This document shows, in pieces, positions 3,178-8,106 of a stretch of DNA of 64,000 nucleotides. The stretch covers positions 1 through 64,000 of the forward strand of contig NZ_QTZO01000003.1 in assembly GCF_004025585.1 (NCBI RefSeq), given 5' to 3'. A model generated the notes under the pieces. It had not been told where the DNA came from. It made no database searches and saw only the letters and a program-made list of their open reading frames with translations. The position numbers and the translations under genes are program-made. The DNA is from Pseudodesulfovibrio sp. S3. GTDB lineage: Bacteria > Desulfobacterota > Desulfovibrionia > Desulfovibrionales > Desulfovibrionaceae. Positions within the stretch are counted from its first letter, which is position 1; each line of letters starts with the position of its first letter.

Positions 3178-3211
3178 AAAACGCCGTCCCTGTCGGGGCG
3201 GCGTTTTTTTT
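3178..3211. terminator. Rho-independent terminator after pal
   Basis: A GC-rich hairpin (AACGCCG and CGGCGTT arms with a short inner loop) is followed by an unbroken T run. It ends the Tol-Pal operon. It lies at the convergent end of pgpA and its A-rich left side may also serve the minus strand. Confidence 0.85.
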
Positions 3212-3689
3212 ACATGGAGAACACTGTGTGGAAAAGGTGGATTCCGCCGAGGGCATACAGTCCGGCCACGCCGTCATCGAGCATGACGCCGAGTCCTCCC
3301 GGAAATGCCGTTTCAGCCCATTTTACGGGCCAGGGCTTGACGATGTCGAAGAAGCGGAAGAGTCCAAATGCGATTCCCAGGTACCAGATGGGCATGGCCG
3401 AAAAGAAAAGCAGGGCGAGCCATTGTCCGAAGAGTTCGTCAATGATGACACATCCGGGATCCTTTTCACCCAAGACATGTTCGGCTCGGGAACAGACCCA
3501 TACTCCTATGGCGAGAATGGCTGCCAATACTGCCGCGCGTCCCCACAGCGTGAAGGGCAGAAACAACCATGGGGAGGCAACAATGGCGGCCAGGGAACCC
3601 CAGGTTCCTGGAGCTTTGGGGAAATGGCCGATGGGGCCGAGGGTTGCCAGGCCGGTGGCGAATTTGTCGAGCGGTGTATTTGAAAGCAT
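3210..3689 (-). CDS. pgpA: Phosphatidylglycerophosphatase A
   Basis: The product of about 159 residues matches the PgpA family, which removes the phosphate from phosphatidylglycerophosphate to give phosphatidylglycerol in the inner membrane. Visible family signatures are the N-terminal GLGPIGHFPKAPGTWGS-like block (here TLGPIGHFPKAPGTWGSLAA), the acidic VIIDELFGQW motif and FRFFDIVKPWPVKWAE near the C-terminus, then a GLGVMLDDGVAGLYA block. Several hydrophobic segments agree with a membrane enzyme. I prefer the ATG at 3689 (MLSNTPLDKF), where family similarity begins. A frame from 3761 would add 24 residues without recognisable similarity. Confidence 0.9.
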   Translation of the reverse strand: MLSNTPLDKFATGLATLGPIGHFPKAPGTWGSLAAIVASPWLFLPFTLWGRAAVLAAILAIGVWVCSRAEHVLGEKDPGCVIIDELFGQWLALLFFSAMPIWYLGIAFGLFRFFDIVKPWPVKWAETAFPGGLGVMLDDGVAGLYALGGIHLFHTVFSM

Positions 3690-4144: not shown

Positions 4145-4702
4145 CGTGTTTCTCCTAATAGGGTTGGAATGTAAATCATGATGTACATATTAACATCTGT
4201 TCATGCGTCATGAAAGACTTGCTGTAATAAAATGAAATATTTATATTATCACTCGTTTGGTGGCGGGATAAGTGGAAGCATCTATGGTAATCCCGGGCAT
4301 TGTCTTGTTGTCAGTTCCGGCATGGTTCAGGGGTTCAGCCTAACTCGCTGTGATTGCATCTCGAATTCAGACGGTGCATTTGTCAGGGGAGGCCTGCTCA
4401 TGTCCGTGCGCTCTTTTTTAGTGAAGGCTCCCCTCACAGGGAATCAGCGATGTTGCCAGGTATAGAGCTAACGGCTTGTTACGTGGTTGCGTATAGTAGG
4501 CAGGCGTTTGAAGCTGTAATTTGTAATAATGGAGCGGGGAGAAAACCGATGCTATCTCCCGGTCATCATTTACAGTCTTTTCAATCTGTCAGTGATACTT
4601 GACTAAGGATATGGTCGCAGATATTTCCGTCGCTTGTGACCAAGTTTGTTCGGAAGGTCGGTTTTTTTACAAGAAGTCACGGAATCAATGGAAGGTAAAA
4701 AC
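4145..4702. other. Gene-poor interval of about 560 bases
   Basis: I find no convincing gene here. Short open frames on the plus strand lack family features, codon bias and ribosome binding sites. One inverted repeat stands out: GTCAGGGGAGGCC at about 4383-4394 can pair with GGCTCCCCTCAC at about 4426-4436 around a loop of about 30 bases. It could be part of an untranslated leader or small RNA upstream of the acetyltransferase gene, or simply decayed sequence. Confidence 0.5.
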
Positions 4703-5191
4703 ATGAGACAGGCGACGGTACAGGATCTTCCCGAGATCGTATCCATCTACAATTCGACGGTAGCGACCCGCTTGGCGACTGCTGACACAAAAGAAGTCAG
4801 TGTCGATTCGAAATTGGAATGGTTTCAAAGGCATACTCCGGATAAACGACCAATATTAGTTCATGAAACCGGAGATCGGATTGCAGCTTGGGTGAGTTTT
4901 GAATCGTTTTACGGGCGCCCTGCATACGACCATACTGCGGAAATCAGTATTTATATCGATTCGGAGTACAGGGGGCAGGGGCTTGGGAAAAAGTTGGTGC
5001 AGGAAGCGATGGACATGACCCAGGGGTTGAACATCAAAACGCTTCTTGGCTATATTTTTTCGCATAATGAACCCAGCATCAGGCTTTTCAAGTCGTTCGG
5101 GTTTGAAGAATGGGGAAGATTGAACGACATCGCGGAAATGGACGGCAAGGAATACAGCCTGTCGATTCTCGGAAAACGGATCAATTCTTAG
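4703..5191 (+). CDS. GNAT family N-acetyltransferase (phosphinothricin acetyltransferase-like)
   Basis: The 162-residue product has the GNAT fold order. An N-terminal MRQATVQDLPEIVSIYNSTV helix is followed by AYDHTAEISIYIDSEYRGQGLGKKLV, which contains the acetyl-CoA-binding Q/R-x-x-G-x-G loop, then a C-terminal NEPSIRLFKSFGFEEWG block. This arrangement is closest to the Pat/YncA subgroup that acetylates small amines or amino-acid analogues. The substrate cannot be told from sequence. The start at 4703 is preceded by GGAAGGT at a good distance. Frames from 4646 or 4688 would only add residues without similarity. It stands alone after a long intergenic region. Confidence 0.85.
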   Translation: MRQATVQDLPEIVSIYNSTVATRLATADTKEVSVDSKLEWFQRHTPDKRPILVHETGDRIAAWVSFESFYGRPAYDHTAEISIYIDSEYRGQGLGKKLVQEAMDMTQGLNIKTLLGYIFSHNEPSIRLFKSFGFEEWGRLNDIAEMDGKEYSLSILGKRINS

Positions 5192-5341
5192 CGTGGTTGC
5201 CCGCCATGACACTCTGTGTCGGTGCGATGGATCAGAAAATAAATCATTCTTTGACGGTTTGTACGGAGAGAACGGTCGTATCGAAGATGGAGATTCGGCG
5301 GTCGGTTTGTTCTCCCTAGAGGCTCTCCCGCACTCCTGACA

Positions 5342-5710
5342 TCATTTCCTTGGTCGGAAGAGAAGAGGCACGCCCAGCAGAAAAAACGTTCCGATGGCAT
5401 ACAGGCAACGCCATAGGGAGTTGCCTTTGGCGGTGTGGCTCTCATCGGGATCTTTCGGGTGTTCGCCTGCAGGCTGCCGCTTCGGAACAGAGGTAGTTGC
5501 AAGAATTGCCCTGGCCCGATCGGCGTCACGGTCGGCCACTCTCAGTTTTACCCCTCCCACAGCATTGGCGTACATCCAGTTTGCGCTCACCATGCCAGCA
5601 TCGATGATGTATGATTCAATGCCGTTCTTCTCCAGCGCATGCTGGGCGAGATGCGCTTCCCATGCGTAAAAGCTTGCGAAGACTGTTGTCAGGTTAAGCT
5701 GATTGCTCAT
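5342..5710 (-). CDS. DUF2007-type putative signal-transducing protein with C-terminal membrane segment
   Basis: The 122-residue protein starts with a DUF2007 domain. VFASFYAWEAHLAQHALEKN and IESYIIDAGMVSANWMYANA are followed by GGVKLRVADRDADRARAIL, the pattern seen in this small ferredoxin-like-fold family. A hydrophilic linker (residues about 72-98) leads to one hydrophobic segment, LYAIGTFFLLGVPLLF, at the C-terminus. It is therefore probably a tail-anchored inner-membrane protein. Its biochemical role is unknown; the family name reflects similarity to a PII-like fold rather than a shown activity. Its first codons overlap the shifted frame of a maf remnant. Confidence 0.75.
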   Translation of the reverse strand: MSNQLNLTTVFASFYAWEAHLAQHALEKNGIESYIIDAGMVSANWMYANAVGGVKLRVADRDADRARAILATTSVPKRQPAGEHPKDPDESHTAKGNSLWRCLYAIGTFFLLGVPLLFRPRK

Positions 5711-5719
5711 GCGATGACA

Positions 5720-5800
5720 CCACTCCCCATTTCAGCAGGCATTCAAGCACCCGGGCCAGGGGCAACATTGGTGTAGGAGCCGCGTACGCCGCAGACATAG
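5720..5800 (-). pseudogene. Frameshifted remnant of a maf 3' end
   Basis: On the minus strand one frame reads YVCGVRGSYTNV, matching LVTGIRGSYTNV of the intact maf gene at 7312-7923. After a deletion of about 8 bases the next frame reads LPLARVLECLLKWGVV, matching LPVARVLEVLVSWGVV. At DNA level the first 26 bases of the match (GGC..AATGT) agree at 20 positions. In the first frame a start codon at 5859, two bases after the flavoprotein stop, opens a 38-codon frame that ends at 5743, so a short peptide could still be made. The piece lies between the flavoprotein and DUF2007 genes, with the other copy 1.6 kb away in the same orientation. Confidence 0.75.
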
Positions 5801-5861
5801 TGAGCCCCGTCCCTGTAGTATGAACGGTCACGTTTATAATGGCGCATTTTGATATCCATGG

Positions 5862-6596
5862 TCAACATACTCCGCTTGCCCTGTCCTTCCGTATTCTGAG
5901 GATGGTCTGTGTCATCTGCTCAAGGATGGCTTCCGGATCGTTGACGTATTTCTTGTTTGCGGCTTCCAGTGATTCTTTTCTGATTGCTCCATGTGTAGCC
6001 ATTTCGGCCCCGCACATGGCGACTGCCTTCATTTGATTGAGCAGAAGATCAGGGTCGGTCACGAGAAGATGCGATGCTGGAAAATGCAGTTCTCCAGCAA
6101 GTTGCCATCCCATGTTGTCAATAATTCGATGAAAAATTCTACTGATTGTAATAAATGATTCTTCTTCAGGATTGCCGGAAGTAAAAATCAGTACGACTTT
6201 TTGTTCTTTTTTATTTCTTTTCACATGGTATGTTCTGCCAATTCTAAACTCAAAATGTGCCCCTAACGTCACTCTTAACCGCTCAATCAGTTTCTTCAGG
6301 TTGCTTGACATGGAGTCAAAATAAACAGGGCTCGCAAAAACAAGAAAATCAGTTTGTTCCATCTTTGCGATAACAGACGTCATGTCATCAGTATAGTTAC
6401 ACACTCCTGGAGTCTCGAACATACATTTCCCGCAGCCTGAACAGGTGGCGATTTTTTGTTTGGACGGATACAGCACTTCACATTGCGCATTTGCAGACAT
6501 AGCGCCTTGTAAAAAACTGCTCAGTACAATGTCGGTGAATCCCTCTTCAGATCGATGACTTCCATTAAACGAAAGGATCTTGAAAGAATTATCCAT
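5862..6596 (-). CDS. Iron-sulfur flavoprotein / NADPH-dependent FMN reductase family
   Basis: The 244-residue protein has a flavodoxin-like N-terminus (FKILSFNGSHRSEEGFTDIV) and a compact cysteine motif, C52-x2-C55-x2-C58-x7-C66, typical of iron-sulfur flavoproteins that bind one 4Fe-4S cluster next to FMN. FLVFASPVYFDSMSSNLKKL is the second flavin-binding block. Such proteins pass electrons from ferredoxin or NAD(P)H to acceptors such as quinones or peroxides; the acceptor here is unknown. The ATG at 6596 is preceded by AAAGGAGG about ten bases away; a GTG three codons earlier sits too close to that site. It follows a MarR gene by 24 bases, so co-regulation is likely. It appears AT-richer than its neighbours. 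Confidence 0.85.
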   Translation of the reverse strand: MDNSFKILSFNGSHRSEEGFTDIVLSSFLQGAMSANAQCEVLYPSKQKIATCSGCGKCMFETPGVCNYTDDMTSVIAKMEQTDFLVFASPVYFDSMSSNLKKLIERLRVTLGAHFEFRIGRTYHVKRNKKEQKVVLIFTSGNPEEESFITISRIFHRIIDNMGWQLAGELHFPASHLLVTDPDLLLNQMKAVAMCGAEMATHGAIRKESLEAANKKYVNDPEAILEQMTQTILRIRKDRASGVC

Positions 6597-6620
6597 GATG
6601 ATCACGCCTCCTTTGTCGAT

Positions 6621-7064
6621 TCAATATCGCTGTAGATGGTTGGCTGCATTTTCAGCCATTGTCTGTAGATCTCTTATCACCGAGTCCTGCCTTTCCTGCG
6701 GCATTTCGTGGCATATTATTTCACTCCACAGCGTGATGATATTCCAGAATTCTTTTTCAATTGCCCGTGCCGAAGGCTGCAAAAAAACACGTTTAATCCT
6801 TCCATCGTTTTTGTCCGGCATCCTTCGTACATAACCCACATCTTCAAGCTTTTTCAACGCCCTGGCGGTGTTGGCCTTGTCCACAAAAACCCTTTTCGTC
6901 AGCTCTTCTTGGCTCAAACCATCTTCATCAAAGAGTTCAGCCAGAAAAATGTATTGCCCTGTACCGATCTTTACGGAAGGCAACTCCTGTCCTAAATAAA
7001 GACTGGACATTCTGTGGAGTAGAGCAATGAAGCGACCCGTGGTTTGTCGTCCTTGTAAATGCAT
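6621..7064 (-). CDS. MarR family transcriptional regulator
   Basis: The 147-residue protein has the MarR winged-helix order: an N-terminal dimerisation helix, then IFLAELFDEDGLSQEELTKR, VDKANTARALKKLEDVGYVR (recognition helix) and the wing RMPDKNDGRIKRVFLQPSA, followed by C-terminal helices. MarR proteins usually repress a neighbouring gene and release DNA on binding a small aromatic or oxidised ligand. The adjacent downstream iron-sulfur flavoprotein is the obvious target. I chose the ATG at 7064 because AAGGA lies upstream and the length is normal. The frame stays open to 7334, but that 90-residue extension shows no similarity and would run into maf. Confidence 0.88.
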   Translation of the reverse strand: MHLQGRQTTGRFIALLHRMSSLYLGQELPSVKIGTGQYIFLAELFDEDGLSQEELTKRVFVDKANTARALKKLEDVGYVRRMPDKNDGRIKRVFLQPSARAIEKEFWNIITLWSEIICHEMPQERQDSVIRDLQTMAENAANHLQRY

Positions 7065-7311
7065 GTCCAGCGTTCCTTTTTTTAAGTTGACTTCGCAACC
7101 AATGTGCCGAGATATTGTTGCGATGTCAACCAAAAATCCAAGGGAAGGGTGAGATGACGTCAAGTTTCGGAGCAAGCGCGCAAGGAAGAGGCGGCAGGTG
7201 CCTACAGAGAAGTACCAGCATCCGGCATCGAAGGCTGTTCGAACATGTTTATCGTAACTGTCTGTGGTAATGAACTCTGGCAGTCCCTTGGTGGGGACTT
7301 CATCTGATTTT

Positions 7312-7923
7312 TCAGCCCTGCCTTGGAACGACAACTCCCCAAGAGACTAAAACTTCTAGAACACGGGCCACAGGCAGTCCGACCACGTTGGTGTAAGAAC
7401 CCCGGATGCCGGTCACCAGGAAGGTGCCGATGCCCTGGATGGCATAGGCTCCGGCCTTGTCCATGGGTTCTCCTGTTTCGATGTATCCCATGAGTTCCGC
7501 TTCAGTGGAGAGGCGCATGTCCACATCCGTGCTCACGGCTTCTGACACCGTGGAGCCGTCGGGCAGGATCAGGCAGAATCCCGTCACCACCTGATGCGTC
7601 TCGCCGGATAGGGCGGTCAGCATCTCCAGAGCGTCGAGCTTGCTCTCCGGCTTGCCCATGATGCGATGCTTGTGAACCACGATGGTGTCCGCGCCGATCA
7701 CGGTCTTTTCCTTGAAACGTTGAGCCACATCCCGTGTTTTTATTTCTGCCATGCGCAGGGCGTAGTCCAGCGGGGATTCGTCCTGTTCGGGCATGGGCTC
7801 GTCCAGGATGCTCGGGTGCACTTCGAAGGCGAGTCCGAGATCGGAGAGCAGTTCCCGGCGTCTGGGAGAACCGGATGCCAGGATAATGGGACTGAGAGAC
7901 TGGAAAGGGCCATGTTTTTTCAT
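7312..7923 (-). CDS. maf: Maf family nucleoside triphosphate pyrophosphatase
   Basis: The product of about 203 residues is a complete Maf protein. PIILASGSPRRRELLSDLGL opens the family; VIGADTIVVHK, MGKPESKLDALEMLTALSG and GEPMDKAGAYAIQGIG follow. Maf enzymes hydrolyse non-canonical or bulk NTPs to NMP and pyrophosphate, a house-cleaning role linked to arrest of cell division. The start at 7923 (MKKHGPF) places the conserved block about 10 residues in; in-frame ATGs at 7941 and 7947 are possible, and no site has a strong ribosome binding site. The last 14 codons (from RVLEVL) look AT-richer than the body of the gene, and a second decayed copy of this 3' end exists at 5720-5800. Confidence 0.9.
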   Translation of the reverse strand: MKKHGPFQSLSPIILASGSPRRRELLSDLGLAFEVHPSILDEPMPEQDESPLDYALRMAEIKTRDVAQRFKEKTVIGADTIVVHKHRIMGKPESKLDALEMLTALSGETHQVVTGFCLILPDGSTVSEAVSTDVDMRLSTEAELMGYIETGEPMDKAGAYAIQGIGTFLVTGIRGSYTNVVGLPVARVLEVLVSWGVVVPRQG

Positions 7924-8106
7924 GCAGTAAATCTCTCTCATATTCATCGGGGAGTCAACGGCGGCCCACTGACGTTTTTTTGTCGTTCTGAAGTCCGTAT
8001 GGTTTACAGCTTGATTTGATTTGTAACTTTTTATTGTATTTCAAGCGATTATGTTTCTGGCAGGTTTATTGCTACATATCGTGCGCGCGGAAGCGCAGGA
8101 GAGACC

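Follow-up and report, generated by a model that had tools for sequence, protein, structure and literature searches.

The 3' end of maf as a probable attachment site for a family of small integrative elements in Desulfovibrionaceae-type bacteria

A second maf 3' end in the window

The stretch of DNA analysed here (the window, 64,000 nt from Pseudodesulfovibrio sp. S3) carries an intact maf gene and, downstream of it, a decayed piece of a maf 3' end, which raises the question of how one gene came to have two ends. The intact gene, encoding a 211-aa protein of the nucleotide pyrophosphatase family, lies at 7312–7947 on the minus strand (Pfam PF02545 (Maf), E 4e-59) and ends where a first-pass annotation of the sequence had placed its end. 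The same annotation had reported a second, frameshifted maf 3' end in the same orientation, and we locate this remnant at 5718–5790 (−). It reads GVRGSYTNV (5764–5790) in one frame and, past an 8-nt deletion, (L)PLARVLECLLKWGVV (5718–5765) in another, and has no stop codon of its own. The proposed similarity to maf was borne out at the protein level, where tblastn HSPs gave E 2e-4 and an HMM of the maf tail scored 19.9 bits, against a maximum of 5.7 bits on the reverse strands of ~60 loci. It was not borne out by DNA alignment alone, since the score of 26 was no better than those of shuffled sequences (up to 31) and is not significant.

As had been noted, only two genes lie between the two maf ends, both on the minus strand: one for a MarR-family regulator of 147 aa (6621–7064; PF01047, E 1e-12) and one for a protein resembling iron-sulfur flavoproteins (Isf-like; 5862–6605; PF03358, E 3e-15, and PF02525). 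Both are indeed richer in AT than their surroundings, with GC contents of 0.453 and 0.429, respectively, compared to 0.536 for the window, and in a GC profile the 1.25-kb marR-isf stretch ranked third lowest of 1,255. The Isf-like protein has an FMN-reductase/flavodoxin fold with an Isf-type cysteine motif, CSGCGKCMFETPGVC, which was read directly from the sequence. Its gene is present in one of 35 other same-genus genomes, where it lies away from maf.

The remnant adjoins a DUF2007 gene (5342–5710, −; PF09413, E 3e-8) that lies within the variable region. The claim that the two are joined, with the remnant overlapping the start of the gene, was correct in that an open frame continues into DUF2007, but the recognisable remnant itself stops 8 bp short of the ATG at 5710. 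The fixed right flank is a GNAT acetyltransferase gene (4646–5191, +), which sits between maf and pgpA (3210–3689, −) in the subclade of the window, leaving 5192–7311 as the variable part. The suggestion that maf-DUF2007 was the ancestral order is not supported. In eight unoccupied genomes of the same genus pgpA is the direct neighbour of maf, its start lying −6 to 127 bp from the maf stop, the subclade has GNAT and pgpA after maf, and no DUF2007 gene turned up in the other genomes of the genus that were searched. Two other genera have distant DUF2007 genes, located 1–17 kb downstream from maf (L143 of G110, L144 of G283, L050 of G286 and L052 of G290). Immediately before pgpA lies a displaced maf end in genome G194, with a weaker counterpart in G006; this would be expected were the native end the first to have been displaced.

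Displaced ends, arm repeats and an integrase in related genomes

Thirty relatives were searched with maf first, and the closest genome, G002, gave a short second match 1.3 kb downstream of maf, at a locus that shows three displaced 3' ends. The maf C-terminus was searched in 348 genomes of the order, 36 of which were then inspected closely. Fragments of maf were found in many genera, mostly running from residue 183–186 to the stop or close to it. When ~60 loci were oriented by maf and scanned with the HMM at a cut-off of 8 bits, 82 hits fell on the forward strand and none on the reverse strand, the counts including the genes' own tails. Displaced ends above this cut-off occur in 17 genomes besides that of the window, belonging to 10 genera; a copy in G240 was excluded from the counts, as it is probably a contig-end overlap (98% identity). 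There are one to five extra ends per genome, on the same strand as maf and nearly always downstream of it, with five in tandem in G287 and three each in G002 and G286. Relatives with two intact maf genes in this arrangement, which according to the first-pass annotation would speak against an insertion, were not found.

Most displaced copies start at the codon for N of GSYT/NVVGLP (the slash marking the boundary), and the sequence that precedes them is shared between copies but is not that of maf, ending in GATC/AACGT. The core CAACGT is kept in 16–17 of the 17 canonical copies. In the window maf the putative integration core, AACGTGGTCGG, lies at this codon (7379–7389, −), the left boundary common to the displaced copies in relatives, and the window remnant begins seven codons upstream of it. 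Four other copies (in G021, G290, G338 and one of those in G287) also reach upstream of the core, which points to a second process at the locus, such as homologous recombination. The copy in G290 (L052, 1337–1465) matches the maf of its own genome exactly over the 50 bp before the core and differs from it in the tail, suggesting a recent recombination between maf copies. At ~26–34 bp upstream of the core the motif CGACGAC occurs (L054, 2504; L056, 8536), the inverse of the GTCGTCG within the core and possibly a second core-type binding site.

The stretch from the core to the maf stop (7312–7389, −), here termed the tail, behaves differently from the rest of the gene. The window maf and that of G295, from another genus, are 51% identical in the body and 88% in the tail, whereas with the unoccupied same-genus genome G005 the identities are 76% and 41%, respectively. 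For 14 occupied and 8 unoccupied genomes the labels were permuted 20,000 times, and no permutation reached the margin by which tail similarity exceeded body similarity among the occupied ones. By these comparisons maf tails follow the elements and not the gene body, and the tail of the window maf would thus be element-supplied. Just past its stop lies a left-end remnant with one arm-type repeat, GAAGTCCCCACC (7290–7301, −). The tail, stop context and repeat are of the element left-end type, shortened by deletion: the left end conserved among the other occupied genomes carries two such repeats.

The displaced end in G093 adjoins a gene for a 352-aa tyrosine integrase (PF00589, Phage_integrase), whose stop lies 42 bp before it. 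Residues R184, K209, H282, R285, H308 and Y317 are invariant between this protein and a 50%-identical relative. It is the single full-length integrase that was found, and lies on a contig without maf. Decayed 3' parts of this integrase gene (57–61% identity) adjoin displaced ends in G082 and G194, and many integrase-less elements keep an apparent fossil of the integrase 3' end, in register at −82 to −40. One GTDB scan for the integrase returned only G093 and a 48% relative in G337, and searches of GenBank phages, plasmids and IMG/VR gave nothing close. The G337 integrase (C11; L121/L124; 48–50% identical) has no adjoining maf end and probably uses a different target site. Upstream of maf in the fetched loci, a search by similarity to the maf integrase, as distinct from an IntI profile, found no relative.

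At the right side of the elements, two direct repeats, CTCCCACACAA-CTCCCCAC, share sequence with the fossil integrase end, and a similar pair, GTCCCCAC..TTCCCAC, lies ~35 bp past the maf stop in occupied genomes. We read these pairs flanking the core as putative arm-type (attP-like) sites. The pattern CCCAC-N6-8-CCCAC has 31 matches in 1.95 Mb (both strands), of which 22 coincide with att arms, while four or more of the remaining nine mark further, more decayed att sites. Across 348 genomes a stricter arm motif has nine matches, eight of which fall at maf-end sites. An arm-motif match in G285 was dismissed as chance, as were most of those in IMG/VR; the exception is one contig (L127), which is identical to the site in G194 along the stretch that was compared.

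The type case is found in G311, where a 1,274-bp unit flanked by perfect 79-bp repeats has both arm pairs and contains one ORF. Its 355-aa product (L053, 861–1928) has no Pfam match; the sequence FRDALVHP near the end of the ORF appears to resemble HEPN-type motifs. In other genomes the cargo includes GFA, GGDEF, ParDE, a SnoaL-like protein and an SBF-family transporter. Most maf units span 0.2–4 kb, and no transfer genes were recognised in them. Away from maf, C31 of G194 (L056, 7190–12384) has a site with a pair of maf 3' ends, part of an integrase and genes resembling PbeC/DndD and SspH; a gene that by eye resembles one for a phage tail protein adjoins this site. In G021 (L033, 4364–16347) an 11.5-kb block with type III restriction-modification genes, Fic and a DrmD-like helicase lies between the intact maf and a 331-bp, 94%-identical copy of its 3' end; this duplication far exceeds the att-type copies in length, and the listed ORFs include none recognised as an integrase.

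Probable serial integration and its alternatives

The shared core, both arm repeats, the adjacent integrase, the tail swaps and the unoccupied sites can all be read from the sequences. Together, the core, arms, integrase and tail swaps point to serial site-specific integration with tandem accretion of integrase-less, CIME-like relics. We consider it likely that a family of integrative elements uses the maf 3' end as its attachment site, that integration there has been serial, and that the window holds one relic. The enzymatic reaction and the order of events we infer to be as follows. A tyrosine integrase, encoded at the right end of the element, would recombine the element circle with maf at the core near AACGT(C/G)GT(C/G)GG, ~78 bp before the maf stop, with the crossover predicted inside CAACGTnGTnGG. 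The left end of the element would bring its own maf 3' end, so that maf stays whole with its last ~25 codons new, and the old 3' end would be displaced downstream, where it would decay because it is no longer under selection. Integration events in succession would line up small cargo units in tandem, the majority having lost the integrase.

The idea of the first-pass annotation that an insertion into the maf 3' end rebuilt a working end and left the old one to decay is strongly supported by the element-borne tails, when set against the gene bodies, by the conserved left end and arm repeat retained in the window, and by relatives with the same arrangement and an integrase. The marR-isf unit of the window presumably came by this route, keeping its left end while its right end was lost or rearranged. 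Near 5790–5900 there is no CCCAC repeat, and no integrase fossil lies beside the remnant, so that the features of a canonical attR are absent. Because the unit has lost its right end and the remnant reaches upstream of the core, the exact event behind it is inferred. No integrase gene occurs in the window, and the best match to the cognate integrase in the window genome (G000) is 36%; with no close integrase in that genome, the unit is probably immobile now.

The upstream reach of the window remnant is also what would be expected if the remnant and DUF2007 had been brought in by homologous recombination, or by a Campbell-type single crossover in maf, from another lineage, with marR-isf arriving independently and no integrase taking part in the window. 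The long duplication around the defence genes of G021 and the DUF2007 relatives downstream of maf in two other genera fit such a route. Yet the window maf has an element-type tail, stop context and arm repeat, and homologous recombination would not yield the canonical right ends that are common in relatives; we regard this explanation as unlikely, while granting it some weight. A plain tandem duplication of the maf 3' end, with subsequent drift and a later chance insertion of the two genes, would account for copies that lie near maf in the same orientation, but predicts neither a fixed core boundary, nor conserved non-maf sequence upstream of it, nor arm repeats, nor tails closer to other genera than the bodies are, and is very improbable.

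A further reading is a variant of serial integration itself, and the confidence placed in the two overlaps. Here, the mini-elements would never have had an integrase and would be moved in trans by rare integrases, forming arrays at maf comparable to those of integrons at attI. The one-gene unit of G311, with both arms intact, the up to five tandem displaced ends in G287 and the varied cargo are in keeping with this, whereas the integrase 3'-end fossils at right ends point to ordinary decay, no attC-like fold was found and no movement in trans was seen. We hold this reading to be doubtful. Its general form, that integron-like one-gene cassettes with attP-type ends are moved in trans and continually rewrite the last ~25 codons of maf in Desulfovibrionaceae-type bacteria, is likewise offered as speculation, although the unusually small cargo and the family-wide reuse of the site make it worth attention.

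Relation to known systems

If serial integration is the correct explanation, the maf-pgpA interval would be a new, marked insertion hotspot used across a bacterial family, and with the core, arms and integrase in hand its cargo (toxin-antitoxin, metabolic and possible defence genes) could be mapped precisely in genomes of the family. The C-terminus of a housekeeping protein would have been swapped repeatedly by mobile DNA, confounding maf phylogenies, and the maf 3' end would be a candidate site at which genetic tools could be integrated in sulfate reducers.

The ssrA-specific islands of Dehalococcoides show a similar logic, in that repeated site-specific integration into the 3' end of a single gene leaves tandem displaced 3' repeats downstream, with varied cargo and about half of the islands lacking integration genes (PMC3146451). 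They differ in having a tmRNA target and a recombinase, DsiB, that has been compared with the Ccr recombinases of SCCmec (PMC3146451), whereas the maf system has a protein-coding target, a tyrosine integrase and arm-type repeats. Insertion near an end of a conserved protein-coding gene is shared with SGI1 at trmE, for which tandem integration is known, and with the dusA islands (PMC8409611, PMC2297512 and PMC4482086); SGI1 is a large element that IncA/IncC plasmids mobilise, while the maf units are small and use another target gene. Integron cassettes are also small units of one or a few genes that pile up in tandem at one site. The maf sites, by contrast, are made of coding sequence of maf and carry direct repeats as arms; the integrase is at the right end of the element rather than at the head of the array, and attC-like folding was rejected at three sites (z-scores 1.1, −0.9 and −0.4).

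The CIMEs (cis-mobilizable elements) related to ICESt1 have lost integrase and transfer genes, keep attL and attR and are stacked in tandem by later integrations (PMC5704250). The G311 unit has both att ends and lacks integrase and transfer genes, whereas the window unit, with only a left end, is better described as a relic of this kind than as a CIME. The maf arrays differ from CIMEs in that no active helper element is known alongside them, except for the integrase-bearing contig of G093. The literature searched contained no report of an attachment site at maf or of such a site in Desulfovibrio. The integration logic is thus a known one, seen in ssrA islands, SGI1 and CIME accretion, and what is new, as far as the literature was searched, is maf as its target.
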